A stretch of 64,000 nucleotides of DNA from Bolinopsis microptera (lineage: Eukaryota; Ctenophora; Tentaculata; Lobata; Bolinopsidae). Where the stretch lies: contig NC_087081.1 of assembly GCF_026151205.1 (NCBI RefSeq), forward strand, positions 8,117,246 to 8,181,245. The letters are read 5' to 3'. Below, piece by piece: positions 8,436 to 42,400 of this stretch; the stretch's first letter is position 1, and each line of letters begins with the position of its first letter. The notes below the pieces were generated by a model that was not told the origin of the DNA, ran no database searches, and saw only the letters and a list, made by a program, of their open reading frames with translations. Position numbers and translations under genes: made by a program.

Positions 8436-10130
8436 TACTTATGTAAATTCAAAATCTAAGATTAGCTAAGATTAAGATACTTAATGCTAACGCACCCCTT
8501 TTGCATGCTGGTGCCGCATCAAATGTAAATTCCTATCCTGGGAATTTGATATTGATTGTAATAAAAACTAAGAAAAGCAGATGTGCTCTTAACATCAAAT
8601 CTCCAATGACACAAGGCTAATTGCCAGTTTCATGATACGCACAATCATTTGATGACCAAATATTGATCACACGATAGAATATTAGATGATTTTCACGATT
8701 GGGATCAAATCTTGTGTATATTACTTACAACTTACATTAGTTAAGCTTGTTGTCATCGAGAGATAATATTAATATGCTGATCTTCTTTAATATGACGAGG
8801 GTTGCTAATAACTTATCAAGCTACGAGAAATCTCGTCTGCTTTTGTAGCAGTGGACTTCAGAACCTGTGATAAAGAAAATTGTTGTGAATTTTGCTCGAA
8901 CATGTGGAAAAATTGCTGATATCAAGCAAAAACCCAGGCAAACTTTAAAATATTGTAAGTAACTTTAAGATACTATTATAATGGGCTCGGTTGAAAAAAT
9001 TAATGCGTGATAAAGCGGCAACATGAGTTCCTTCAATCATTATCCTTTGTTCAATAATCCGTTAACTTACGTTTAAATGCTCAAAACTTGGTCGTAATCC
9101 AGGATCACAGATTTTCACATCAGCGCCATGTTTCAGGATATTCAGGGGTGTAGAAATAATTTTCCTCGTGGGGGGGGGGGGGGGGGGGCGGGCGGGGGGG
9201 GGGGGGGGGGGGGGTGGTCAAAACCGTAAAGTCTTTATAATGTACATAGTATGCACTGTGCAACTCAGCCATAATTTCAAAACTTCCATGTCATACCTTG
9301 AAAAAAGTTTAATGTGCAGGCATTATTAAATTTTGTGCAGTTAAGAGTCTGGCGAAAGATTCAGTATGGCAGGATGACTTAAAAATGCATTTTGTTGTGC
9401 CAACTTCGGAGTTTTGGTACGAAGTTCTAGAAATTTTTGAATTATACTAATTATAGTAGTTGATCTCGAAAATGCAGTGCAAGCAGAGTGAACCTGGAAC
9501 ACATTTTGGGGGGGGGGGGGGGGCAGCTTCCTTCTCCCCTGAAAAAATTGGTTTATTGGCAATAAATTCGGCTAACTGTATCTTGGAGAGAATTCAAATA
9601 TGTTATACACTATTAAAATATGTTTCTTTATGATAATCAACGATTTACGTCTAAAAGATACTTTTTAAAGATCTCAAGAAGTAAGAAAACAAGTTTTCAG
9701 GTAACTTACTTTGTGGATTCTGGTGACTCCAAGATTATAGTCTCGTGTCTTCGTTCATTCTGGACTTCAGTGGTCTGGTACTACAGGGATCATCTAACTG
9801 CTTCTCAGTTGATTAGCTAATAGCTTTCTTCATGCCCTCGTCTATTTAAAAAGTTATAGTTATCCTGCAAAACAGATCAATTGAAATAATGATCTTCAGC
9901 CATTTTATCTTGACACGTGAAAATATGGTTTATTTAATGGATAAATCCAATTAGAATATATTAATAATTGAACAACTCGCCCTCAAAACCATAGTAGATC
10001 AGAAAAGTGCATTGTTTGTGTGAGCAGAGTAGTATTTATAAATAATGTTGATAATATAAGAACATACCAAACCAAGAGCTCAGTTGAGTTCCGTCTGAAG
10101 GGGTCTGGCTCAGCACTGTGCGTTTTGATA
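8436..10130. repeat. Diverged tandem array, last copy
   Basis: This resumes the array interrupted by the foldback element. The CTTCATGACGAGGG-like block recurs near 8790 and the ATGGGCTCGG block near 8982. The segment ends with CAAGAGCTCAGTTGAGTTCCG near 10074, which also ends the earlier copy near 4698. It therefore pairs with 5313-5716 as one split unit. No intact reading frame is supported. Confidence 0.6.
9170..9217 (+). repeat. Poly-G tract
   Basis: Almost uninterrupted G for about 48 bases, with another pure G run near 9509-9524. Between them, 9135 (TTCAGGGG) and 9546 (CCCCTGAA) look like the ends of a short element, but I find no matching target duplication. Tract length may be unreliable in assembly. 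Confidence 0.8.
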
Positions 10131-24300: not shown

Positions 24301-27300
24301 TATCCGGATGAGGATTCGGATCTTCAGGAGTTTGAAGATTTGGAAGGAGCCGCAACAAAAACGTAAGAATTGAGAATATGTTTGACTTGTATGCAAAACA
24401 AATGGTGGTAAGAAATGTTTCTATCTTTCTATGTAATGTAACGAATAAATATATTTTGCTCTAATGAAGGTTCATACTTTGACCAACCGGCAACCCGATA
24501 TAAAAATATGTAGGTTAACAAGCCACTCTTACCTTCTTGCAATTTTCAAATCGATAAGTTCTATAACTGAGGAAATCTCAGAGCTGCCCCAAGTTAGCAT
24601 GGTGAATGGCAAACCTACCAACCTTATTCAGCATAGTGTTTTTATAGGGTAAGGGTTTGGTTGAAATCTAGTTCCAGGTTGAGGACTAAGGCCGGTTCGG
24701 GATAATATTAGTTCAGTTCTGATACTTGTAGATCAACTTAAGTTTATTTGAACTTGGAGATTTGGTCATGAACAGAATTAATTGCAACAATTACTCAAGT
24801 TACTCGTGGTATGTTATAAATCTGTCATATCATGCTTCCTTGACGTAAAAACCAAGGGTAGTAAGTTAATCACAACTCACTAAAGTCCCCTCAGAAGTGT
24901 TTCTTCCGGTCCAAAGAACGAATCAGACCCGTTTACGGACTCTGACAACATGGACACTGGGGTCAGCTTGCAGGAGGAGCTGGACATATCAAAAGAGTTT
25001 GTACTATTTCCACTTTATAAGTTTATAAATAATCTACTTATTAGCTAAAGCTTCGTCTTCATAAATCATCACTATCTTGTCATGCTTGATTAGAATTAGG
25101 TGGCTTGTAGTTGTGATCTTCTTTGAAAGACTATCAACAAAACAAAACACCGAACATCTCAATTCCCAGGTATGAAAGTGACGGATTCTCAATGTGCTCC
25201 GAGAAGATCTCGCACGGGGAAGCTAGGAAGATGCTATCTGAAAGCGAGCAGAGGTTTTCAGCTATCGTAGACTCTTTCGACCAGGTTGACCCTGATGATA
25301 GTTTCTTGGAGAATGAGCTGCTGATGCAGCATGAAAATAGTAGACTTGGTAAGTTGGAGATTATTTGTAGACCTTTAGTATTTTGAATACATTCCAAATC
25401 GTGTAATATCCGAATGTGAACATTGATTATTGGTCGCATAGTTGTACTGTTTCTTGGGCAACATTTTTAGTGATCCCGTTTATTGTCGCAATAAACGGGA
25501 TCACTAAAATTTTGCCCCCAAACACATTTCGAATCGAAGGTACACATATAATTTAGATTGTCAGGTTCCCAACTATGAATTCAGTTTTAATCTTAAAGTT
25601 AATCCTTGTGTATACTATACTGTTAAAAAGTTACAAATCTTTATATTTATATAACTGCTTACTGCTATAAAGTTCAAACATGCGCTTAAGATCGGGGCTC
25701 GGTCCAAATATCCAATTCTTCTAATGGCATTATGCAATATAATAGACACTTGTGCACCTCCTAAATTGGTATAATCTTGTATCGGTGATATCAAAATGCC
25801 TTAACACACACATATATAGCTTATGAGCTAGAGCGATTCATTTGTATTAAAGGCTATCAGTATAGTGTTATACCTGCTTCCCAACGGTTTATCCGCTAGA
25901 AATTCTCCATTTTAACGGTTTATCCGCTAGAAATTCTCCATTTTAACGGTTTATCCGCTAGAAATTCTCCATTTTAACGGTTTATTCGCTAGAAATTCTC
26001 CATTTTAACGGTTTATTCGCTAGGAATTCTCTATTTTAACGGCGCGGTTTATTCGCTAGAAATTTTCCGATTTAACGGTTTATTCGCTAGAAATTCTCCA
26101 TTTTAACGGTGTATTCGCTAGAAATTCTCCATTTTAACGGTTTATTCGCTAGAAATTCTCCATTTTAACGGTTTATTCGCTAGAAATTTTCAATTTTAAC
26201 GGTTTATTTGCTAGAAAGTATGCTCAATTTTGACTATTTTTCAGAGGATATCATGTCGGTTCCTTCCTCTGTAGAAGATCTGAGGTTTGATAAGGAGGAA
26301 CTCCCTCTCCTGGACACAGAGTTAGTTAATTTCATATTTAATCGTTTTTAGACATTGTTTGAGCTTAGAACTTGAAGGAGCCGTATTTATCATAATATGT
26401 CCTTTGAAATGGGCTAACCAGCTGAATCGTTCAATACAAAACGGATGGTCTAATTTTCAAACTGCCAAGCGAAATCATCCATAAAATGTTTCAGATCGAC
26501 CGTGACTGAGAACGAGATGATGATACCTGTGCGACATGACCCTCAAGAGAGGCCATCACTCAGATTCTCAAAACAGTCTCAAGAACAGAAGGGACGGGTC
26601 ATGCACCCAACTCCAATCAAACCCACTGTAAAAAAGACATCACAACCCGCTAAAGCAAAGGAGAACATTGATTTTAATAACTACGAGAACGACTTGAATG
26701 ATATTGAGAACTTGCTGTTTAAGTATGATGAATATAGAATGGATCAGGAATTGAAGAAAACTGATAAGAAGGCAGATTTGGGAAAGAAAAAACTTGAGAA
26801 AACTGCTGTAGCAGGGACTGTCCAAACTAACAATAAAGTAACGCAAGGACCTATCAAAAAGATATCCGATGGAATCGGCAGTAAACTGAAAGCTCCTGCA
26901 AAGCCTAAGTCGACAGCTGTTGTATCTAGTTCCAGTGGTATGACAGGTGGAATAAAGACGGGGATCGCAAAAGGAGTCAAAACAAACACGGCAGTAAGGA
27001 AGCCACTCATTGCACCGAAAAAGTTATCTCCCACAAAAATCAGTGCTAAGCCATCACCGATCAAACGTGCAGAAAAAACACCTTCCACATCTCCGGTCGC
27101 AGTTAAAACTTTACCGATATCTTCGGAAAAGGATGTAGCTAATGAGGTGGACAACGCTGGAGCGAAACCAAAACCAGCAAGTCCTGGAAAAAGGACGTTG
27201 ATTGGAACAAAACCAACAGGAACAAAACCTTTGGTAAAACCAAAACCAGCGCCAATTTCGAACAGGATAGCCACATCAAAAACATTTACCTCAACATCAA

Positions 27301-29042
27301 AACCGGTAGCGAAGGATACCTCGGGACAAAAAATTAAGAAAGCTGCGGTGTCTCCTAATAAGGTAATGAAAAACTCTAAAGCTGTATCTCCTTCTAAAGG
27401 TCCAATAACGCCTTCGTCAACGAATGCACTAGTTTCTTCGAAAACTGCTTCAGCAAAAACGTTTGAGAAAAAATCATCGGATGTTAAAGAAACTTCGTCG
27501 CCAGATAAAGTAGAATCGAAACCAGCTCCAGTCGCCAAAACAAAACCATTAATATCCTTTAGGGCATCGCCTCCGAAAACCTTGACGAAAATTCCAGCTT
27601 CCGGTATTGGCACTTCAAAAGGAAATTATGTAAGAAGTGCAATGATGGCGACGGCAAAATCCCCAAAATCACCAGCCACCAGTGTGTCAGTTGATAAAGA
27701 CGATACTTTCAAAACATTTAACGAAGAGAGTAAGACTGTGCCTCCCAAAAAAGGATTAAAATCATCACCAATAAAAGTTCCTACCAATAGCAAGCTTTCT
27801 CCCCCTAAAAGTAAACTTTTACCAGTAAAGTCTGCTCCTGTGGGTAAACCTACGATTCCTAAATTACCATCCAAGCAAGGAACTCCGTCGGCCCCTTCAG
27901 CTAAAAAGTCGAATAATCTGCAGACAAAGCAATCTGAAACACCCTCAAAATCAGCTGCTGATAAATCAGTTACCAGCCCAAAGACACCTACCATGACACC
28001 TTCATTCGCATCAAAAAATAATGTTGCGACAAAACCTTCAATAGCGTCAAAACTGACTGCTACAGCAACTGCTTCATCGAAATCAAAATCTTCCCCTAGG
28101 CCACCTCCAAGTTTAACCAAGAATGGATCTACAAAAAGTCCATCAAAATCCGTTGGCATTGCCAAGCCAGCAGGCACGATTTCAAATTTAGCTAAATCGT
28201 CACCCGACAAGAAATCAGCGTCTATAGCTTCAATAAGTGGGACGATTAAATCAGCGGGTATAAAACTTTCAAGTAATCTTGCTGCTAAAGAAGTATCAAA
28301 TCAGTCAACAAGAAAATCTTTGGAGCCTTCAAATGATGTTAAGAATACCACTAGTTCTCCAAAGCCCATTTCGATACCCTTTAAAAGTTCTCCTCCCAAA
28401 ACCACCTCGGGTAAAATAGCTCTCTCTAAATCATCTCCAGTTAAAACATCTTCAACCAAAACAGCAACTCTAGTAGCTAAACAGTCTCATACAACAACTT
28501 CTGAGTCACCGAATTCTCAAAAGGAGCTAAAGATTCCTCCTCCTAAAGCAACATCAACTCCTATCAAAAGCAGTGTACCGACCACTAAAAAATCCCTTTC
28601 ACCAACTAAAGCCACCACGAAAACAATTCCATCTCCAAAAACAACAGCTGTCACTAAAAAGACAGTATCAGCGATTAAGCCTAAACAAACTCAATCCAGT
28701 GGGAGTACTGCGAGTAAGTCAGCATCCAAAGACACTGTTAAGGAAGCTGATAAAAGTTCACCAAAGTCTCCCGACAAAACAATCAGCAAAATACCCAGCC
28801 CTTCAAAAACTACTCTTAAAACAGGAGATAAAACTAAAACCGGAGATAAAACCAGTAAAACACCGGCCTTTAAACCTGAAGTTAGCCCTAAACCGAAGGT
28901 CCACACGAAAACCTCTCCAGTAAAGACGGTTCAGAGAACCTCTCCAGAGAAGACGGTTCAGAGAACCTCTCCAGAGAAGACGGTTCAGAGAACCTCTCCA
29001 GTGAAGACGGTTCAGAAACCAACGCCTGTAATGAGGTTTTAG
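18371..29042 (+). CDS. Long disordered Ser/Pro/Lys-rich protein, seven phased exons
   Basis: Exons that join in phase: 18371-18533, 18721-18843 (its acceptor could also be 18709), 23696-24362, 24895-25020 (weak donor), 25170-25348, 26245-26320, and 26495 to the stop TAG at 29040-29042. The N-terminus is acidic (EIVDLSQDDIELD). The third exon starts PAARQRARRDIKEMIDKRLT and includes a predicted helix TLQLKETRRLLDVLKESE, then acidic stretches. The 849-codon last exon is dominated by K, S, T, P and A with dozens of SP and TP sites (for example SPTK, SSPKS, TSPVK), giving a strongly basic, disordered chain. Such composition is known from microtubule-associated and cytoskeletal scaffold proteins; a role there is inference only. 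No start codon is assigned. The stop abuts a strong donor (TTTTAG then GTGAGT), and an alternative donor at 29036 would join the chain in phase to the RhoGEF exons downstream, so this may be the N-terminal half of one larger gene. Confidence 0.65.
21073..21370. repeat. Direct duplication of about 118 bp
   Basis: The segment starting GATTGCATGCAGGAGAGGGA occurs at 21073-21190 and again, identical as far as I can read, at 21253-21370. A diverged third copy starts near 22376. Each is preceded by a block ending TCCGAAAGGGGTTAGTTT plus a GC-rich tail (21221, 22341). This pattern suggests an older element later split by the MITE at 21384-22289. Confidence 0.85.
21384..22289. mobile_element. MITE carrying an internal minisatellite
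   Basis: The ends are inverted: TGAGGGCACGTTTTTGCTAG at 21384 and its near-complement CTAGCAAAAACGTGCTCTCA ending at 22289; the similarity extends about 40 bp inward. The core is the 10-bp CAGCAGTTAG array. Tandem arrays inside MITEs are known in marine invertebrates. No coding sequence. Confidence 0.75.
21795..22224. repeat. 10-bp minisatellite (CAGCAGTTAG)
   Basis: About 43 copies of a 10-bp unit alternating between CAGCAGTTAG and CAGCAGTCAG, with higher-order groups that include CATCAGTTAA. It begins just after a CGCGCGCGCG tract and lies wholly inside the MITE. Confidence 0.95.
25456..25518. other. Near-perfect 30-bp-stem hairpin in an intron
   Basis: Left arm 25456-25485 and right arm 25489-25518 are complementary, with a core stem TTTTAGTGATCCCGTTTATTG around a 3-base loop (TCG) and one indel in the outer stem. 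It lies in the intron between 25348 and 26245. It could be a tiny foldback MITE, or a hairpin RNA precursor if transcribed. The 3-base loop is smaller than usual for animal microRNA precursors. Confidence 0.85.
25883..26213. repeat. 33-bp minisatellite just before an exon
   Basis: About ten copies of a unit of roughly 33 bp containing ACGGTTTAT, CGCTAGAAATTCTCC and ATTTTA. It ends about 30 bp before the acceptor of exon 26245-26320, so it forms the upstream side of that 3' splice site. Confidence 0.9.
26495..29042 (+). CDS. Giant low-complexity exon with C-terminal tandem peptide repeats
   Basis: A single exon of about 2.5 kb, acceptor TTTCAG, phase 2 in. The chain is rich in K (A/S) P and SP dipeptides. 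Near its end, 28909-29022, a 30-bp unit repeats four times and encodes TSPVKTVQR / TSPEKTVQR variants, placing phosphorylatable TSP sites at regular spacing. Apparent long minus-strand frames opposite this exon come from its composition and are not separate genes. Confidence 0.75.
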
Positions 29043-30484: not shown

Positions 30485-33400
30485 GTGAGTTGGAATTAAT
30501 GTTTGATCAGTAACCATGACAATAACCATAACAGTAACCATGACTAATCAGTAATCATGGATGATTGTTAGTAACATATGTATTGACCGAATTAAAACTT
30601 ACATCACTTAACTGTAATAAATATTTAATATCCTGGTGAATGTTAGCCTATTTAATACGCGATCTCGTTATAATAACAAATTGCCATCAGTAAAAATATT
30701 TTGTTTAGCGCGGCGGTAAATCGGGGTTGTACTCTTTTTATTCTACAGAATTAACTGTACGTTCAAATGTTGAACATTATTTATATACTGTCCGGTGTTT
30801 TAATTTTTTTTGAAAGTTGTCCTTTTGTAACATGTAATTGCTTTGGAAACAATAAACATACTCCATTTCTAGCTGTTGTTTAAGTATAAACAAGTGTTCT
30901 CTCCAGGAAATGAAGACAGGAACTCCTACTCTTACTCTACCCTAGGGTGAGGTGGTGTGTGACGATTTTTCTACTGCACGTGCGAGCGCACTATCACGTG
31001 ATTTGTTTGCTACTTTAACAGCTTCACACTTTAACAGTTTACAAGTGTTTTTACCTTATTTTGAAAAGGTACATTTAGTGTTACATGTGTGTTTTTAAAC
31101 TGAGATTATTTTGAGAATGATGGGATCATGTTCCATTTTGCAACCTTTTGTTTTTTGGTTGGATTTTAGTTTGCAGTTTTGCTCACCGTGGGTCATTTTT
31201 ATGGGCCGGGTATAAACAATTCATGTGATGATGTTTGGGCGAATATTCAGGGTCATGAGATTTATACCATCAAGATTATTATTTGTACGAATTTGTAACC
31301 ATTATTGTAAATATTTATCCATCGTTGAATGCTAATAATGCACGGATTTTCTAATTTGTTTGAAAAACTTTATTGCTATTGGTTTAAAAATTGCAATAAA
31401 GCATCAAAGTTATTAAATATTATAATTCAAATAAAACTTAAAGTTTCCGATTTCCTCAACAAATATAAAGGTCAATAACAATCAACAAGCTCAATATGTA
31501 GATATCAGATATTGGTCTAATTGAACTTATCATAACATATCAGGTCACTTACTCTCAGAGGAACTGGAACAGCCTTCTCTACACACAACCTCCAGGTTAG
31601 TCTGGTGGGGGGGGTACAGCCTTCTCTACACACAACCTCCAGGTTAGTCTGGTGGGAGGGGGGTACAGCCTTCTCTACACACAACCTCCAGGTTAGTCTG
31701 GTGAGGGGGGGGGGGGGGGGGTACAGCCTTCTCTACACAGAACCTCCAGGTTAGTCTGGTGGGGGGGGGGGGGGGGGTACAGCCTTCTCTACACAGAACC
31801 TCCAGGTTAGTCTGGTGGGGGGGGGGGGGGTACAGCCTTCTCTACACACAACCTCCAGGTTAGTCTGGTGGGGGGGGGGGGTACAGCCTTCTCTACACAG
31901 AACCTCCAGGTTAGTCTGGTGGGGGGGGGGGGGGGGGTACAGCCTTCTCTACACAGAACCTCCAGGTTAGTCTAGTGGGGGGGGGTACAGCCTTCTCTAC
32001 ACACAACCTCCAGGTTAGTCTGGTGGGGGGGGGGGGTACAGCCTTCTCTACACAGAACCTCCAGGTTAGTCTGGTGAGGGGGGGGGGGTACAGCCTTCTC
32101 TACACAGAACCTCCAGGTTAGTCTGGTGGGAGGGGGGGGGTACAGCCTTCTCTACACACAACCTCCAGGTTAGTCTGGTGGGAGGGGGGGGGGGGGGTAC
32201 AGCCTTCTCTACACACAACCTCCAGGTTAGTCTGGTGGGGGGGGGGTACAGTCTTCTCTACACAGAACCTCCAGGTTAGTCTGGTGTGGGGGGGGGGGGG
32301 GGTACAGCCTTCTCTACACAGAACCTCCAGGTTAGTCTGGTAAGGGGGGGGGGGGTACAGCCTTCTCTACACAGAACCTCCAGGTTAGTCTGGGGGGGGG
32401 TACAGCCTTCTCTACACAGAACCTCCAGGTTAGTCTGGTGAGGGGGGGGGGTACAGCCTTCTCTACACAGAACCTCCAGGTTAGTCTGGTGGGAGGGTGG
32501 GGGGGGGTACAGCCTTCTCTACACACAACCTCCAGGTTAGTCTGGTGAGGGGGGGGGGGGGGGGTACAGCCTTCTCTACACACAACCTCCAGGTTAGTCT
32601 GGTGAGGGGGGGGTACAGCCTTCTCTACACAGAACCTCCAGGTTAGTCTGGTGGGAGGGGGGGTACAGCCTTCTCTACACACAACCTCCAGGTTAGTCTG
32701 GTGGGAGGGGGGGGGGGGGGGGGGGGGTACAGCCTTCTCTACACAGAACCTCCAGGTTAGTCTGGTGAGGGGGGGGGGGGTACAGCCTTCTCTACACAGA
32801 ACCTCCAGGTTAGTCTGGTGGGGGGGGGGGGGTACAGCCTTCTCTACACACAACCTCCAGGTTAGTCTGGTGAGGGGGGGGGGGGGGGGGTACAGCCTTC
32901 TCTACACACAACCTCCAGGTTAGTCTGGTGGGGGGGGGTACAGCCTTCTCTACACACAACCTCCAGGTTAGTCTGGTGAGGGGGGGGGTACAGCCTTCTC
33001 TACACAGAACGTCCAGGTTAGTCTGGTGGGGGGGGGGGGTACAGCCTTCTCTACACAGAACCTCCAGGTTAGTCTGGTGGGGGGGGGGGGGGTACAGCCT
33101 TCTCTACACAGAACGTCCAGGTTAGTCTGGTGTGGGAGGGGGGGTACAGCCTTCTCTACACAGAACCTCCAGGTTAGTCTGGTGGGGGAGGGGGGGTACA
33201 GCCTTCTCTACACAGAACCTCCAGGTTAGTCTGGGGGGGGGGGGGTACAGCCTTCTCTACACAGAACCTCCAGGTTAGTCTGGTGGGGGGGGGGGGGTAC
33301 AGCCTTCTCTACACACAACCTCCAGGTTAGTCTGGTGGGAGGGGGGGGGGGTACAGCCTTCTCTACACACAACCTCCAGGTTAGTCTGGTGGGGGGGGGG

Positions 33401-36400
33401 GGGGTACAGCCTTCTCTACACAGAACCTTCAGGTTAGTCTGGTGGGGGGGGGGGGCGGGTACAGCCTTCTCTACACAGAACCTCCAGGTTAGTCTGGTGG
33501 GGGGGGGGGTACAGCCTTCTCTACACAGAACCTCCAGGTTAGTCTAGTGGGGGGGGGGTACAGCCTTCTCTACACACAACCTCCAGGTTAGTCTGGTGGG
33601 GGGGGGGGGTACAGCCTTCTCTACACACAACCTCCAGGTTAGTCTGGTGAGGGGGGGGGGGGGGTACAGCCTTCTCTACACAGAACCTCCAGGTTAGTCT
33701 GGTGGGGGGGGGTACAGCCTTCTCTACACACAACCTCCAGGTTAGTCTGGTGGGAGGGGGGGGGGTACAGCCTTCTCTACACAGAACCTCCAGGTTAGTC
33801 TGGTGGGGGGGGGGGGGGGGGTACAGCCTTCTCTACACACAACCTCCATGTTAGTCTGGTGGGGGGGGGGTACAGCCTTCTCTACACAGAACCTTCAGGT
33901 TAGTCTGGTGGGGGGGGTACAGCCTTCTCTACACACAACCTCCAGGTTAGTCTGGTGGGGGGGTACAGCCTTCTCTACACAGAACCTCCAGGTTAGTCTG
34001 GTGTGTCGGTGATTTTGGGTTTTGATTTGCCACTGCTTTGATTAAACGATGCCAACCCTTTCTGGCTCGTAAAGCTTCATACTATAGCACGATCTTAGTC
34101 TTACGATCTCCTTTATAGTGGTTAGTCACACAGAGATACTGCGGTGCAGGAGCAGGGGAGGTGGACAATAGTTGTTTTATACGTGACAGTGCACAAAAGC
34201 AGAAGGAACTAAATTAATTTTTGAGGAGAATCTTTTTTAATTTTAAGCGTTTTAATGCTATTAGCTTATTAAGATTCGATGTGTTTGCAAAAGAACTGTT
34301 TATTTCATCATTTAATGATTAGTCAGACATAAATACTGGTCGAGAGGTGCACAGTAATTCAAATTGTTTTTACACGTAAAAGTGGGCGCGCGCATGATGA
34401 CGTGTTATATTTATATCTTGATAAGGTCCACTTCTCAAAAAACATTATTATTTCAGTTGTGTCAAGGTTGCAGGGTCCCTTGGAACAAGTAAGTAATAAT
34501 GAGTGTACCAGTGCAGGGAATATCGACATGAGAAGTCAAATTTATTAGCGCCATTCTAACCGGGCACAGTCTTAGCCGGAGTTCTAAAAAACCCAATTTG
34601 AATTTGTATTAACCATTTGGCATATGCCAGATATACGGACGATTGCCTTTTTGAAGGACTTTATATCGCACAAAATCCCATAATTCATGGCCGAAATCGT
34701 GAACACGTGCACTATCCATTACCAATTGTCTTTGTTGAGGGTTCCGCAAACTACAAAACTTTAACAAATGGTCGCATGCTCGTTGCTTCATCAGCTTTAA
34801 TGGCTTCTGTTTTCTTGGATTGCGGCTGTGTGCATTCCTATCAGTTGTCAACTTTTAACAATGTCTAGCTTATATTTAGAGCTACCACAACAAAAAAAGA
34901 TACAAGTTGAACTTTTTAAATTTAGAGTAGCCTATGAGCTAGATTATAAATCCATCATTAGCAGAGCTCAATGCAGCATCATAAGCAAGTAACTGGTTAA
35001 TATTACAAGTGGACCTTTATTGCATGATGTAAAATGCAACTTTTCCTCGTGTTTCAACTCTCAATATACAACTTTTCCTTGTGTTTCACTTCTCTTATCT
35101 TTGTAGCGAGACATCACGTGCCGGACCTTGTGACCGGTGTATTGTCAGACAAAAAGACAGGTGTAGTTTGATAGAAGAGTTCCTACAGACGGAAATTATC
35201 TACAACGATCATTTAGTATCCCTGAGAGAGGTAAGGAATCTCAAGTCTATCACTACAAACCTTAATTTGTATATTCAAAACTTTATAAGCGGGCTTAGAT
35301 TTCTTCCGGAGAGATATGACTTGTACAGGGGTGGAAGTTCATAGGAGAAACAAGATAGAAATACTGTTTACGAGTGGCTGGTAAGGAAAATATTTATGCC
35401 ATCCGGGGGTATTCTTGTTCATAGTATGGGCTCATAGGGTGATTGAGCAACCCGATGTAAATTGTCACCACTCCAACTGTGCAGGAGCCTCTAAACAAGA
35501 AAGGGAGGAGCTTCTTTCGGAGTGCCATTCTAAGATCACGTTTCTAAGCTGCTAAATTTGTGTCAGCGTGTGCAGAAGCGTCTAGACTCATGATTAAAGG
35601 GGGTTAAGGGAATCCCCGTAACCACAGTAACTGTAACCGTTGTAACCGTGGTAACGTAACGTCACCACGTCAGCTAGTTACTTTATCAGGATGTACAGAA
35701 ACTGGGTGGGAGTAAGGTTTTTAGAGACAGCTTAGTAGAGGGGATTCCTGTAACCGTAACCACACGTCAACTCTTAGAGTACTAACATTTACCTTTACCA
35801 GAGTGTACCGCAGAAGCCTCTAGACTCCAGTAAGGTTTTTAGAGAGTTAGAGAGCAGAGTGAGAGAGAGGGGAGATTCCTGTAACAATAACCACACGTCA
35901 ACTCTTAGAGTAAAGAAGCCTTTAGACTCATGATTAAAGGGGGATTGAGGGGGAGTATGTCTGTAACTATAACACCACGTCAACTACTAACTTTAACCTT
36001 TACCTCGACCATAACTACAAGTTTTTAGAGACAGCTCAGTGTCTATGTATAGAGGGGGGATCCTGCAACCATAACCACAAACCAGTTACCAGACGTCAAC
36101 TTCTAACATTACCAGGGCGTACAGAAGCCTCTAGACTCCAGCACATTGTTAACACCAGCGGAACACACCAAAATATTTGCAGAGTTGAAGGTTAGTTTTA
36201 AAAGTTTGTTCAGTGCTGTAATAGTACAGTAGTGGTGTTTTGTAATAGTACCCTGATTTATTGCAGCTGGTTCTTCCAGCGCAGGTGTTTAAACTCAAGT
36301 ATAAACTTTATTGTTATTCCCCAGTTTTTGTAGGAAATGTATCACGGACTCCGCTTTTGTTTGCACATGAGCAGATATTTGTTTTGATAATCTTTATCTT

Positions 36401-39400
36401 TTCGACCATTAACATTGCCTTCCCAGCTCCTATTTAACTTAAATATTGGCAGCTCTAATTTCGTTTTGACTTTTATTGATTTAGTACTCATGGTGGCGCT
36501 GTTGGCAACTTCACCGCCAACTTGTTGCCAAGAGTCACTCACTTGTTGCTAAGGATCACTCTAATTCATTCTATCTTGTACAGGATCTTATATATTTGAG
36601 TAACCGAGTAATCGCTCTTCTGAACGACGCTATCAAGAGTTCCATTCAGCACGGTGATCAGGTAATATTAGTGAAGTTGATCTTTTACTTTTGTTTATTT
36701 GTTGTTACGTTGTTATCTGCAACACCAAAACGGTTTAAGCAAAACGTCAGCCGCTTGAAATTGTTCAGGTGTTTTTGTTAAACAATCCTGTTTTATTGTA
36801 TGTATAGAATACGACGAATTGCTCCATGCCTGATGCCACACTAACAGAGATTGGTTTGTTCTAGTAACTAATATTCATAACATTTCAATCTTCTCAGCAT
36901 TTGGAGAGAGTTGAGATAGGGCGGATATTATTCAGAGTTTGGCCTCACTACAGCTGCTTTGTTCCCTTCGTTATCAAGCAAGTAAGAGTTAAGCGATAGG
37001 GCTGGTTCAAGCAGGTATAAGCTATAAAGTATTTCTCGGAAAATTGATTCCTTAAATTGTCATTATGGCCCTTATATATAGAATGTAGGAATTATAGAAC
37101 ACCAAGTGGCCATGTATCGTTACAAATAGTTATTCTTTAAGATTGATATTTCAATATTTCATGTGACCGTTTGTAACCACACCCTTATAATTATTGTCAC
37201 TGTGTCTGAGCTATTAGCAGTGAAGACTGAATTAGGTCACAGTTCTAAGAATAAAACGTCAGAATCAGTTTATACCACTATAAACGATATTACATCAAGC
37301 ATAAGCACTGAGCTATAAAACCATTTCGATATTCATCTGATATCTGGATTCATCAGTTATCTTCAACTTTTAAGCGCATGATAAACTCATGCCCGCATAA
37401 ATGTTACTCCTCCAAATAAGTTCTGGAAGTCATACATCCCAACATATTGAAGTATTGAGTACTTTGTAAAATGTAGTCACGTAATAATATAATAAGTTGC
37501 TGATGGTTACGTATTGTTTTGTGCGTTACTTAGTGCAGTATGTGCTGCTCAACACCAATATTAGCTGAGTAATAGTATTATTAGTATCACAAACCTTCTA
37601 TACTCAAAACATTGTGTGGCTTTCCAGCCAGATATTTGATAACTTGTGGTTACGTTTTGTTTTTTGCGTTACTTTGTGCTACTCAACACCGATATAAGCT
37701 GAGTAGTATAGTAGTAGTGTAGTAGCATTGTTACTAATAGTATAACTAGTAGTGTAGGATAACTCAACTTTGCACTACACCGCCGCCAGTAGCAGCCACC
37801 ACCAGTGATTCTGGCCACGCCGCCGCCAGTAGCAGCCACCACCAGTGATTCTGGCCACGCCGCCGCCAGTAGCAGCCACCACCAGTGAGTCTGGCCACGT
37901 CGCCGCCAGTAGCAGCCACCACCAGTAATTCTGGCCACGCCGCCAGTAGCAGCCACCACCAGTGATTCTGGCCACGTCGCCGCCAGTAGCAGCCACCACC
38001 AGTGATTCTGGCCACACCGCCGCCAGTAGCAGCCACCACCAGTGATTCTGGCCACGCCGCCGCCAGTAGCAGCCACCACCAGTGATTCTGGCCACGCCGC
38101 CGCCAGTAGCAGCCACCACCAGTGATTCTGGCCACGCCGCCGCCAGTAGCAGCCACCACCAGTGATTCTGGCCACGCCGCCGCCAGTAGCAGCCACCACC
38201 AGTGATTCTGGCCACGTCGCCGCCAGTAGCAGCCACCACCAGTGATTCTGGCCACGCCGCCGCCAGTAGCAGCCACCACCAGTGATTCTAGCCACGCCGC
38301 CGCCAGTAGCAGCCACCACCAGTGATTCTGGCCACGCCGCTGCCAGTAGCAGCCACCACCAGTGATTCAGTGGTACCGTGCCCTTAAGTAAAACTCACAT
38401 TACCAAATTATAATTATATGATTAACTCTCACTAGCATTTCTTTGCTACCCAACCGCTATGCAGCAACCGCTTTGCTACTAAATGTTTTAGATGCGACTC
38501 ATAAATAATATTCCTATCCGGATATTACACTTTTTAGATAATGATGTGAAGTGTCCAGCATAACACTTATAACATTACGTTTTGTGCTTTTTCCGTTTGT
38601 CCGTGCCTTAATCACTAGTGTACTTTCAAAAATGTTTTGCGTAGCGTAATCATTAGTGGTTAAAGTTTATACTTTTATAATAGTTATACAGTTATCGCGT
38701 ATGGTAATATCGTAAAATTTTGTAAATGGCTTGATCACTAATTAATCTTGTAATCCGTTATGCAGTGGCTTGGTCACTGTTCGAAGGAGTCATTCAGAAT
38801 TAACATACGGCTTCCTCGGGAGGCCTGATAAATATAAGATCACCTGCTCATATATTCGTGTCAACGTTTCAACAATAATCGTAAATCCCTTATTGCTTTT
38901 AATTTGAATCACCTGCTAATCTGATGATTATTTTACATTTTTGGACAAAAGTTTTAGCAATTAAGTAATAATAGCAATAAAATACTTAGGAAACGAATCT
39001 ACAAGTACTGACGGAGCTAGAATCTACTTCAGAAGACTTTAGCAATTAAGTAATAATAGCAATAAAATACTTAGGAAACGAATCTACAAGTACTGACGGA
39101 GCTAGAATCTACTTCAGAAGACTTTAGACTCTTACTGTGGGAAGCTGATATAGCGGACATCGGATCTTTGGAGAAACTATTCCAGAAACCATCCCTCCGC
39201 ATTCACAAGTAAGTATTTCATCAACACTAAGCAGGTATTAGAAATCAAAGAACATCAACTTTTGTCGGTTTAGATCCCGTTTGATATTTTACCATAATAT
39301 TTTAATAGTTGGATTTAATTCTTTAATATAATCTAGTAAATTAAGAATATCTGCATGTTACTTATACTTGTAGTATGTAGAGTTGTGAATTGTAAAGAAT

Positions 39401-42400
39401 ATTCTGTTGGCAGGTTACCAAGCTTTGTTGATCAAATACTAGAGAAAACTCCCCTGACGCATTGCGACAGAAAAGCATTGCAGAACACCCAGCAAAAGGT
39501 CCAAGAACTACTCACAAATATTAAAAAGGTAGAACAAACAAGAAAATGAAATAGAAATACCAGCAATTCAACTCCATTGCACGTACAATTATAAAGTTAT
39601 TGACCTATCAGGATTACAATCTAATACAGCAATATTAATGTATACAAATCTGTTTTGAAGTAATTCCAGACCATGAAGTGTTAGTAAACCTTTTTGAAAT
39701 GTTCTCAGCAAAATCTTTTCAGTACTCCACCAGACGAACCCCGGCCTCGAAAGAAAGGAGAGCACCACCTGCAAAGCCTAAACGTAAAATGAAGAAGTCA
39801 AAGACCTCACCAAAACGCTCTGACTTTGGAAAGACTTTCACCAAGAGTCCTAACAAACGGAAAAGTTTAAACCCATTTGATTCCAGCTCTTCTAGTTCCT
39901 CTGAGTACCATGAAGTAGGACCTGGTGAAGTAGGACCTGTTGACGATGATAAAAGTGAAGAAATGAAGCGTGATTCTCTAGAAAGGGCGTTCCAAGTGAT
40001 TGAAAAAGCTGAGGAGGTAAACTGTGCATCTCTCGAACGGGCCCTACAAGTCATCGAAAAAGGTGAAGAAATAAACTGTGATTCTCTCGAACGGGCATTT
40101 AAAGATCTCGAAAAATCAATCGAATGTATGGAAGCCAGTTCTCAAGTCCCAAAAGTTGCGTTAGATTCATCAGAGGGTTCAGAAAAACGGACCACAAACC
40201 TGTCAGTAGTTGAAGAGTACTCTCCAGGCAGCCCCGCTAACTCCAGCTTTGAGGGTTCCCTCAGACTCTCTCCCAGGATGGCACGTGCAACTATCCTCAG
40301 ACCTCGCAGTGCTTCTCCTAGAACAAGGAGCTTCTCGTTTGGGAGGGATGAGAGTGAGTGTGCAGATCAGGAGTATAATAATTTGTGGGAGAAGAGGTCA
40401 TCCTCACCGGGTATTATAGAATACCTTTCCGATCGATCTGTTACCAAAAGTCCCAAGTTAAGGGGGCAGGGGGGGTCTTTTTGAAATTTCTCTCGAAATT
40501 GATTTTATAGTTGTTTTTGATAGAGGAGAGTGATATCTATCTGTTGCTTTTGGTCCCATGGAAAAATATTGTTCCTAGCCAAAGTTATTGCCGGTCAAAG
40601 GTCAGCGCTCATGTGTAATTGTATTGCGCGAGCGATTTTCAATCGCGCGCCCTGAAAATCGAGTCTAAAAATCTATCTTCTCCTACATTTTTTGAGCAAT
40701 CACCTTGAAACTTTCAGGATATGTTCTAAGGACCATTTAGAAACTTCTGGTCGATCAGAATTTTGAGATAGGCCTTTTAAAATTTTTTATTCAATTTTGA
40801 AAATCCCGGACCTTGAAAAATCGTCAAAAAACGAGGTCCAAGATTTTCAAAATCGAATTAAAAATTTTCTAAGGCCTATCTCAAAATTCTGATCGACCAG
40901 AAGTTTCTAAATTGTCCTTAGAACATATCCTGAAAGTTTCAAGGTGATTGCTTAAAAAATGTAGGAGAAGATAGATTTTTAAACTCGATTTTCAGGGCGC
41001 GCGATTGAAAATCGCTCGCGCAATACAATTACACATGAGCGCTGACCTTTGACCGGCAATAACTTCGGCTAGGAACAATATTTTTCCATGGGACTAAAAG
41101 CAGCAGATAGATATCACTCCCCTCTATCAAAAACAACTATAAAATCAATTTCGAGAGAAATTTCAAAAAGACCCCCCCCTGCCCCCTTAAATCCGAAGAA
41201 GGATCAGTCACTGAGTAAGCTCCATACAGTAGAAGGTGACAATGAGATCAGGAATGAGAAAGAAACAACTGCAGAGCCGCACTCAGTAGAACACTCTCCT
41301 CAGAATACCTCTCAGCCACAAACTCCACTTCCAGAGTCAGAAGACTTAACTCCTTGTAAAGCCAAGAATGCTTCAGTATCTTCCACGATAGGGGACGAGT
41401 TTTTCTTTGATGAACGAGATTTTTACGAGATTTCAGATATGGAGTCGGACACATCCTTGGATGAGTTTGAGCTCAGGTTTGTGCCATTTCATTCGAATTT
41501 CTGAGATTAGCAAATGGTGGAATTTCCCCTGCATCTGCCCAATCCACTATTTCATCAAGCTGCTTCAAAATTGCTTTGTAGATCACACCTATAAGTATAA
41601 TGAAACTGAATGTTACAGATCGAAGGGGTCGGAATTAGAATTATCAGATCTAGAATCAGAAAGGTATTGGTCAACTCAGAAATCTAAAAATCCGCCAAAA
41701 CCAGGTAAGTGCTAAACGATTGATTGCACTAATTAAGTAATTCATTTTCAGAAATCGAATGTCATCATTTCTATGAAAACCTACACTTAGTTTGTTACCA
41801 TTTCGTCTTCATTCTTTTTCCCGACCGAAATCTAATTCCCGACCAAAATAGAACATGTTATTTAAATGATTATTTCTCGAATAATTAGAATGAAATTAAA
41901 TATATATAATGAGTCCAAAGTACGTGCTTCCCCTCCTCGAGCCATCCTTCTAGCTCCACACCTACAAGTCATGAGTGCCCGTTATTCAGACAGATCCGTG
42001 ACCGTTCGTATTACTGAGACAATGACTATAATTTCTCGCTCTTAAGACTACTACGACTATATCATTCATCTCTGTATAATAGACGCTGTGAGGAATTACC
42101 ACTCATTTCGTCATTTGTATTCGTCTAGTGCGTAAAGTACAGGTTACAAAACTAAAGTTTCTTTTATAAACAGAACCACAATGTTTTCTAATCTTTCTCT
42201 TAGAACATTATAAACAGTGATATTATAAACAGTAACATTATAAACAGTGATATTATAAACAGTAACATTATAAACAGTAACATTATAAACAATATCATTA
42301 TAAACAGTAACATTATAAACAATAAAATTATAAACGCTAACATTATAAACAGCAACATTATAAACAGTAACATTATAGACAATAAAATTATAAACAGTAA

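Follow-up and report, generated by a model that had tools for sequence, protein, structure and literature searches.

A probable mirage-type minisatellite at a candidate exon/intron junction of a ctenophore RhoGEF gene

Minisatellite-like tandem duplications of exon/intron boundaries have been described as "mirages" in the globin and Adh3 genes of amphioxus, and the available portions of that report state that AG/GT signals occur in many of the copies, that the arrays vary in length both between alleles and somatically, and that the data suggest regular splicing to be undisturbed (PMC3087553). In the sources as excerpted, mirages are reported in a handful of lancelet genes and are linked to the origin of introns, PGBD5 and troponin C are cited as similar to them (PMC3902484), and downstream repeat units of the human IFI6 (6-16) minisatellite are said to serve as donors in mRNA (cited in PMC4526556). 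No mirages were reported for ctenophores in a limited search of the literature on ctenophore minisatellites and amphioxus mirages, including the available portions of PMC11797021 and PMC12221973. Here, we analyzed 64,000 nucleotides (nt) of the ctenophore Bolinopsis microptera (contig NC_087081.1, positions 8,117,246 to 8,181,245; hereafter the window), in which a minisatellite of 47 copies occupies positions 31569-34003 of the + strand, its unit of 45-64 nt resembling an exon end followed by a 5' splice site and a G run. We consider it probable, at roughly three chances in four, that this array is a mirage-type minisatellite in a RhoGEF gene, with one of its donors used and the array removed along with the intron. 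The initial annotation of this DNA knew of no standard feature that describes such an array, which was mistaken, as both the amphioxus mirages and the human IFI6 minisatellite with its several donors are known. The several splice donors of the IFI6 (6-16) minisatellite were reportedly described by Turri et al. in 1995.

The array itself is clear. Tandem Repeats Finder (TRF) reports a period of 52 and 46.8 copies at 31569-34003, and a pattern count gives 47 tandem copies, the first of which is the end of a putative exon at 31559-31595 (e1), leaving 46 extra copies. The unit reads ACAGCCTTCTCTACACA[G/C]AACCTCCAG|GTTAGTCTGGTG followed by the G run, and its 35-nt core, ACAGCCTTCTCTACACA[G/C]AACCTCCAGGTTAGTCT, is nearly invariant: two main forms account for 22 and 19 of the 47 copies, the remaining 6 carry one further change, and column 18 is G in 27 copies and C in 20. 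The 46 units differ in length chiefly through the G run (mean 11), and the final copy (33965-34003, + strand) is partial and passes into unique intron sequence (GGTGTGTCGG). The donor CAG|GTTAGT, which had been claimed for every copy, is indeed retained in 46 of 47, the single exception being CAT|GTTAGT. The earlier description of the unit as the end of a small exon, its 5' splice site, and a G run also stands, but at least 27 nt of exon (31569-31595) are repeated, rather than 23 nt. Provided that e1 is an exon, the unit would span its last 27 nt and the 5' splice site, with AG/GT signals kept in 46 of the 47 copies, and the locus would belong by structure to a known kind, the mirage.

Across the 264,652,675 bases (264.65 Mb) of the genome searched, the core is unique to this array at up to 3 mismatches, with 47 forward and 0 reverse matches and 0 for a reversed control, and the array is found at one assembly locus only, within which both unit and G-run lengths differ. 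A mobile or introner element was rejected, as the core occurs in this array alone and the sister arrays that were fetched (below) have different units. Block duplication inside the array is unconvincing, since no block of copy types longer than 3 is repeated, and shuffling most often gives this same value; the best of 39 lags tested between copy types (lag 38, 4 of 9 matches, p 0.025) is likewise not convincing. A telomeric origin, suggested by GGTTAG within the motif, was dropped because no TTAGGG arrays lie at six contig ends. Scans of the window found no Rfam matches at gathering scores and no tRNA genes. A search for the GFP family likewise gave no match, which says little. Among 20,000 tandemized 52-mers drawn from the window, a fraction of 0.0005 hold a strong donor together with a strong acceptor in one unit, draws starting inside the array being skipped yet kept in the denominator, and the sharing of both signals by one unit exceeds chance for one array.

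As had been proposed, the array is intronic, and it lies before the first DH exon of a + strand gene. Five downstream exons, at 35107-35230 (first of the DH domain), 36584-36661, 36898-36981, 39075-39208, and 39414-39528 (end of the domain), when joined to the preceding small exons, match PF00621 RhoGEF (DH) at 43.7 bits (cut-off 27.6), and the best solved relatives of this domain are intersectin DH domains (1.2e-6). The small exons are all candidates. Splice sites were scored by matrix, with percentiles relative to the window background; on this scale e1 (31559-31595, + strand, 37 nt) combines an acceptor TTACTCTCAG|A at the 98.3rd percentile with the donor CAG|GTTAGT at the 99.2nd. A second candidate, e2 (34457-34488, + strand, 32 nt), encodes with the next exon the pattern C-x2-C-x13-C-x2-C, and e1, e2, and the first DH exon share one open frame (...GTGTAFSTHNLQ|LCQGCRVPWNN|ETSRAGPCDRC...). 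A possible upstream exon, e0 (30907-30946, + strand, 40 nt), is weak and phase-compatible with e1. The DH exon that begins at 39075 also has a weak acceptor (41st percentile), which lies inside a perfect tandem duplication of 85 bp x 2 at 38953-39127, a further splice-junction duplication in the host gene, here on the 3' side. A separate minisatellite of 40 bp x 14.8 (37780-38368) occupies the intron between two DH exons, and its unit holds neither a strong donor nor a strong acceptor.

Arrays of the same kind are found elsewhere in the genome. In a search for tandem donors with gaps of 20-50, in which pair counts are dominated by big arrays, CAGGTTAGT gives 1338 tandem pairs (reversed control 56), CAGGTAAGT 505 (2), and CAGGTGAGT 383 (14), against 161 (reversed 16) for the one-base-change control CAGGATAGT. 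Donor arrays were fetched from 15 places, and a reading of their flanks puts the start of 11 of them at an exon end (L056-L061, L064, L066, L067, L070, and L071); the four not so counted are one not at an exon (L063), one whose stretch lies wholly within the array (L062), L068, and L069. In the seven sister units that were measured, the donor is repeated along with between 6 and 40 nt from the end of the exon. Pfam matches support five of the 11 exon-end arrays, two of them above the curated cut-off, namely SHMT (90.3 bits) and an AA_permease match joined over the intron across the array (28.3 bits, cut-off 24.6), while kinase C-lobe, C2H2, and WD40 matches fall below it. In SHMT, the array forms the 5' part of the intron, a unique 3' part ends in its own acceptor, and splicing the first donor directly to that acceptor produces an ungapped alignment of 106 residues to the solved SHMT 1rv3.

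Taken together, these observations suggest the following course of events. Tandem duplication would first have acted on the junction between e1 and its intron, including the 5' splice site, leaving a G tract between one copy and the next. Slippage or unequal exchange would then have homogenized these copies and raised their number to 47, at the 5' end of the intron that precedes the DH exons. For splicing to the e2 acceptor at 34457, the spliceosome would pick a single one of the equivalent donors, usually the first owing to its place next to the defined exon e1, and the array would leave with the intron. Occasionally a later donor, or a microexon of 9 nt, may be used as noise, and copy number should be hypervariable.

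Several points weigh against this account. The candidate exon e1 is 37 nt long and without homology; an upstream open reading frame at 26454-29042 is in frame with e1 only by way of a weak donor (GAG|GTTTTA, 50th percentile), and the strong donor of this 862-amino-acid (aa) frame, TAG|GTGAGT, coincides with its end and makes an in-frame stop. Two such pieces would be open in a forced frame with a chance of 0.22; openness plus CxxC in the second piece has a chance of 0.005, by a criterion picked post hoc. For the sister arrays, 29% of random points have at least 50 aa open upstream, so the length of an open frame was rejected as proof of an exon, and the six exon-end arrays that lack a Pfam match are weaker because random points often show long open frames. 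The control is also not clean: of four control arrays (L072-L075), two carry a donor inside an open frame or at its edge, L072 with CAA|GTTAGT and L073 with CTAG|GTACTT, whereas L074 and L075 showed none, and the first two may therefore be exon-end arrays with other donors.

The alternative that fares best, which we regard as improbable, is a working splice switch in which 27 competing microexons of 9 nt, or later donors that lengthen e1, would be chosen by G-quadruplexes or by factors like hnRNP H/F. The initial annotation had pictured mini-exons of 23 nt between TACAG and the donor, each shifting the frame upon inclusion. The TACAG letters are present, but they make a poor splice site, with a median score of -8.0 (range -8.6 to -6.1 over the 47 copies scored), at the 16th percentile of 3595 AGs and following a G run, and the spacers between neighboring mini-exons would measure just 22-41 nt; mini-exons of this size are not supported. 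A far better acceptor, CTACACAG|AACC, scores 5.1 (99.6th percentile) in 27 of 47 copies, the other 20 having ACACAC instead. It sits 14 nt past TACAG and brackets with the donor (99.2nd percentile in 46 copies) 9 nt, AAC CTC CAG, encoding NLQ, as in copy 4 (31727-31755, + strand), where the strong acceptor, microexon, and donor read CCTTCTCTACACAG|AACCTCCAG|GTTAGT. The proposed frame shift fails for this likelier exon, because the good acceptor yields 9 nt and the frame is kept.

Other features would also suit a switch. From the e1 acceptor, donors 1-4 only are reached without a stop and the frame is kept by 1 and 3, so that splicing from donor 3 would likewise be open and in frame. Folding of the G runs into quadruplexes, as first suggested, is plausible, since allowing them in RNA folding lowers the predicted energy by 15-62 kcal/mol in three stretches. 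A good acceptor is also present in four of the seven sister units (L058, L060, L061, and L064; scores 3.4-6.1). Against these points, near-identical copies offer no basis for an ordered choice, and of the 81 frame-preserving pseudoexons of up to 400 nt that run from a strong acceptor to any later donor, 39 are interrupted by stops, and the 9-nt exon itself accounts for 27 of the 42 that are open. The other three sister units (L056, L057, and L059) lack a good acceptor, with best scores of -1.8, 1.4, and -0.6, and microexons are therefore not a property of the whole class. The amphioxus data, in the available text, also suggest normal splicing (PMC3087553).

About equally doubtful, if marginally more so, is an ordinary intronic minisatellite that resembles a splice junction by chance, in which case e1 would not be an exon. 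The genome is rich in minisatellites, with 64 TRF rows in the window, some of them overlapping; exon-like pairs of sites at such scores occur there at 0.10 per kb (6 in 61.5 kb, e2 included), and given the genome-wide supply of arrays, a frequency of 0.0005 per unit would be met somewhere. On the other hand, the e1 acceptor lies 10 nt before the array, whereas the chance of meeting an equally good one in a 40-nt stretch is 0.04, the frame of e1 fits both e2 and the DH exon, and arrays with the same donor stand at exon ends elsewhere, two of them with the Pfam matches above cut-off. Removal of the intron unit by unit through dual-specific or recursive CAG|GT sites is very improbable, for while CAG|GT flanks every unit and human UBC uses tandem dual-specific sites (PMC10809524, as excerpted), CCTCCAG|G as an acceptor reaches just the 77th percentile, compared with the 99.2nd for the donor, and introns the size of one unit would measure 45-64 nt and be rich in G.

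The arrays of this genome apparently favor GTTAGT over the usual GTAAGT and GTGAGT, which is perhaps new. As single motifs, CAGGTTAGT occurs 4526 times (2619 reversed) and CAGGTAAGT 2462 times (1212 reversed), and most of the excess of 1907 for the former can be placed in its tandem pairs (1338). Among the matches listed, about 100 per search, C1 has at least seven GTTAGT loci over its initial 15.7 Mb, all but one of which are at an exon or may be; there are at least nine GTAAGT loci in C1-C4 (86.8 Mb), five of them single pairs, at least six GTGAGT loci in about 55 Mb, and at least four for the broken site GATAGT in about 49.5 Mb, or 0.45, 0.10, 0.11, and 0.08 loci per Mb, respectively. By locus, GTAAGT and GTGAGT are close to the broken-site control, and by pair count they stand at 2-3 times it. 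With any base allowed at +3, 2950 pairs are found (control 72), and seven loci among the matches listed comprise five with T, one with A, and one with C. A tentative reading, to which we give rather less than even odds, is that exon ends with the unusual CAG|GTTAGT are the preferred places for minisatellites to arise or persist in this ctenophore. Either a mutational process would target this junction, or many copies would offset a weak donor and the arrays would be selected as a form of 5' splice-site dosage. Weighing against the preference, the locus counts are small and drawn from the matches listed, reversed controls are unequal from motif to motif, and among the four control arrays, two are possibly at exon ends, one with CAA|GTTAGT.

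Some further arrays were noted in the course of these searches. Very large arrays with CAGGTGAGT and CAGGATAGT units lie at C3:5823835-5828349 and C1:25810168-25813433, respectively, their extent being at least as listed, and the latter may start at an exon end with the donor CTAG|GTACTT. The unit of L069 (C8:7268200-7269400) resembles a 3' splice site (TTACTCTTACCTTATTTCAG|GTAAGT), which would make this array a possible mirage on the acceptor side. Within the window, a 45-nt tract at 9170-9214 is 90% G, and some of the sister arrays contain G or C tracts as well.

Elsewhere in the window, an inverted repeat at 40462-41185 has arms of 352 nt that are 95% complementary, 20 nt apart, and contain G/C tracts; it lies between, and overlaps, open frames at 39639-40484 and 41073-41504. 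In the genome, matches to the glutamate-receptor ligand domain PF10613 fall in open frames of 431-989 aa in 22 of 32 cases, so that many of these genes are apparently free of introns for the greater part of their length. The top match of one receptor segment (L055) is ML032222a, a Mnemiopsis glutamate receptor, at 200 bits, well ahead of 4zdm (111 bits) and glutamate receptor 2 (64 bits), and that of another (L054) is again ML032222a, at 120 bits; these relatives place the animal among the ctenophores. For a third segment (L052), no ctenophore receptor is found among the best 60 of 246 and the best 60 of 357 matches.

Mirages at several ctenophore genes would make the process either old or repeatedly invented, and if the tentative reading above is true, intron growth by mirages would be widespread among animals rather than a lancelet oddity. 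Extrapolating from 1338 pairs at 7 loci per 100 matches listed, about a hundred GTTAGT arrays would be available as natural tests, and such arrays could address the choice of a donor among dozens that are near-identical, the preference for a weak donor with T at +3, and the growth of introns. They may also confuse gene predictors and the mapping of splicing from short reads.

Compared with known systems, the array shares with the model of intron gain by tandem genomic duplication (the AGGT model; Cryptococcus CNN00420) a duplication that carries splice sites, but it lengthens an intron that has its own distinct acceptor, and no new intron is seen. Human UBC, in the available portions of its description, likewise has tandem AGGT sites in one transcript; its repeats are coding and are spliced out or kept, whereas those of the RhoGEF locus are intronic. 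In both the IFI6 minisatellite and the present one, several donors are supplied by the repeat, with use in mRNA described for IFI6 in the excerpted source and predicted sites here. The closest likeness is to the amphioxus mirages, with which the array has in common, as far as the accessible text goes, a minisatellite-like duplication of an exon/intron boundary with many copies of AG/GT. It differs from them in its size, with 47 copies and G tracts compared with 3-6 units given for BflGb6 in that text, and in its setting, a ctenophore in which arrays occur at many loci, on the 5' side of the intron at the RhoGEF locus, with an apparent preference for GTTAGT that amphioxus may share.

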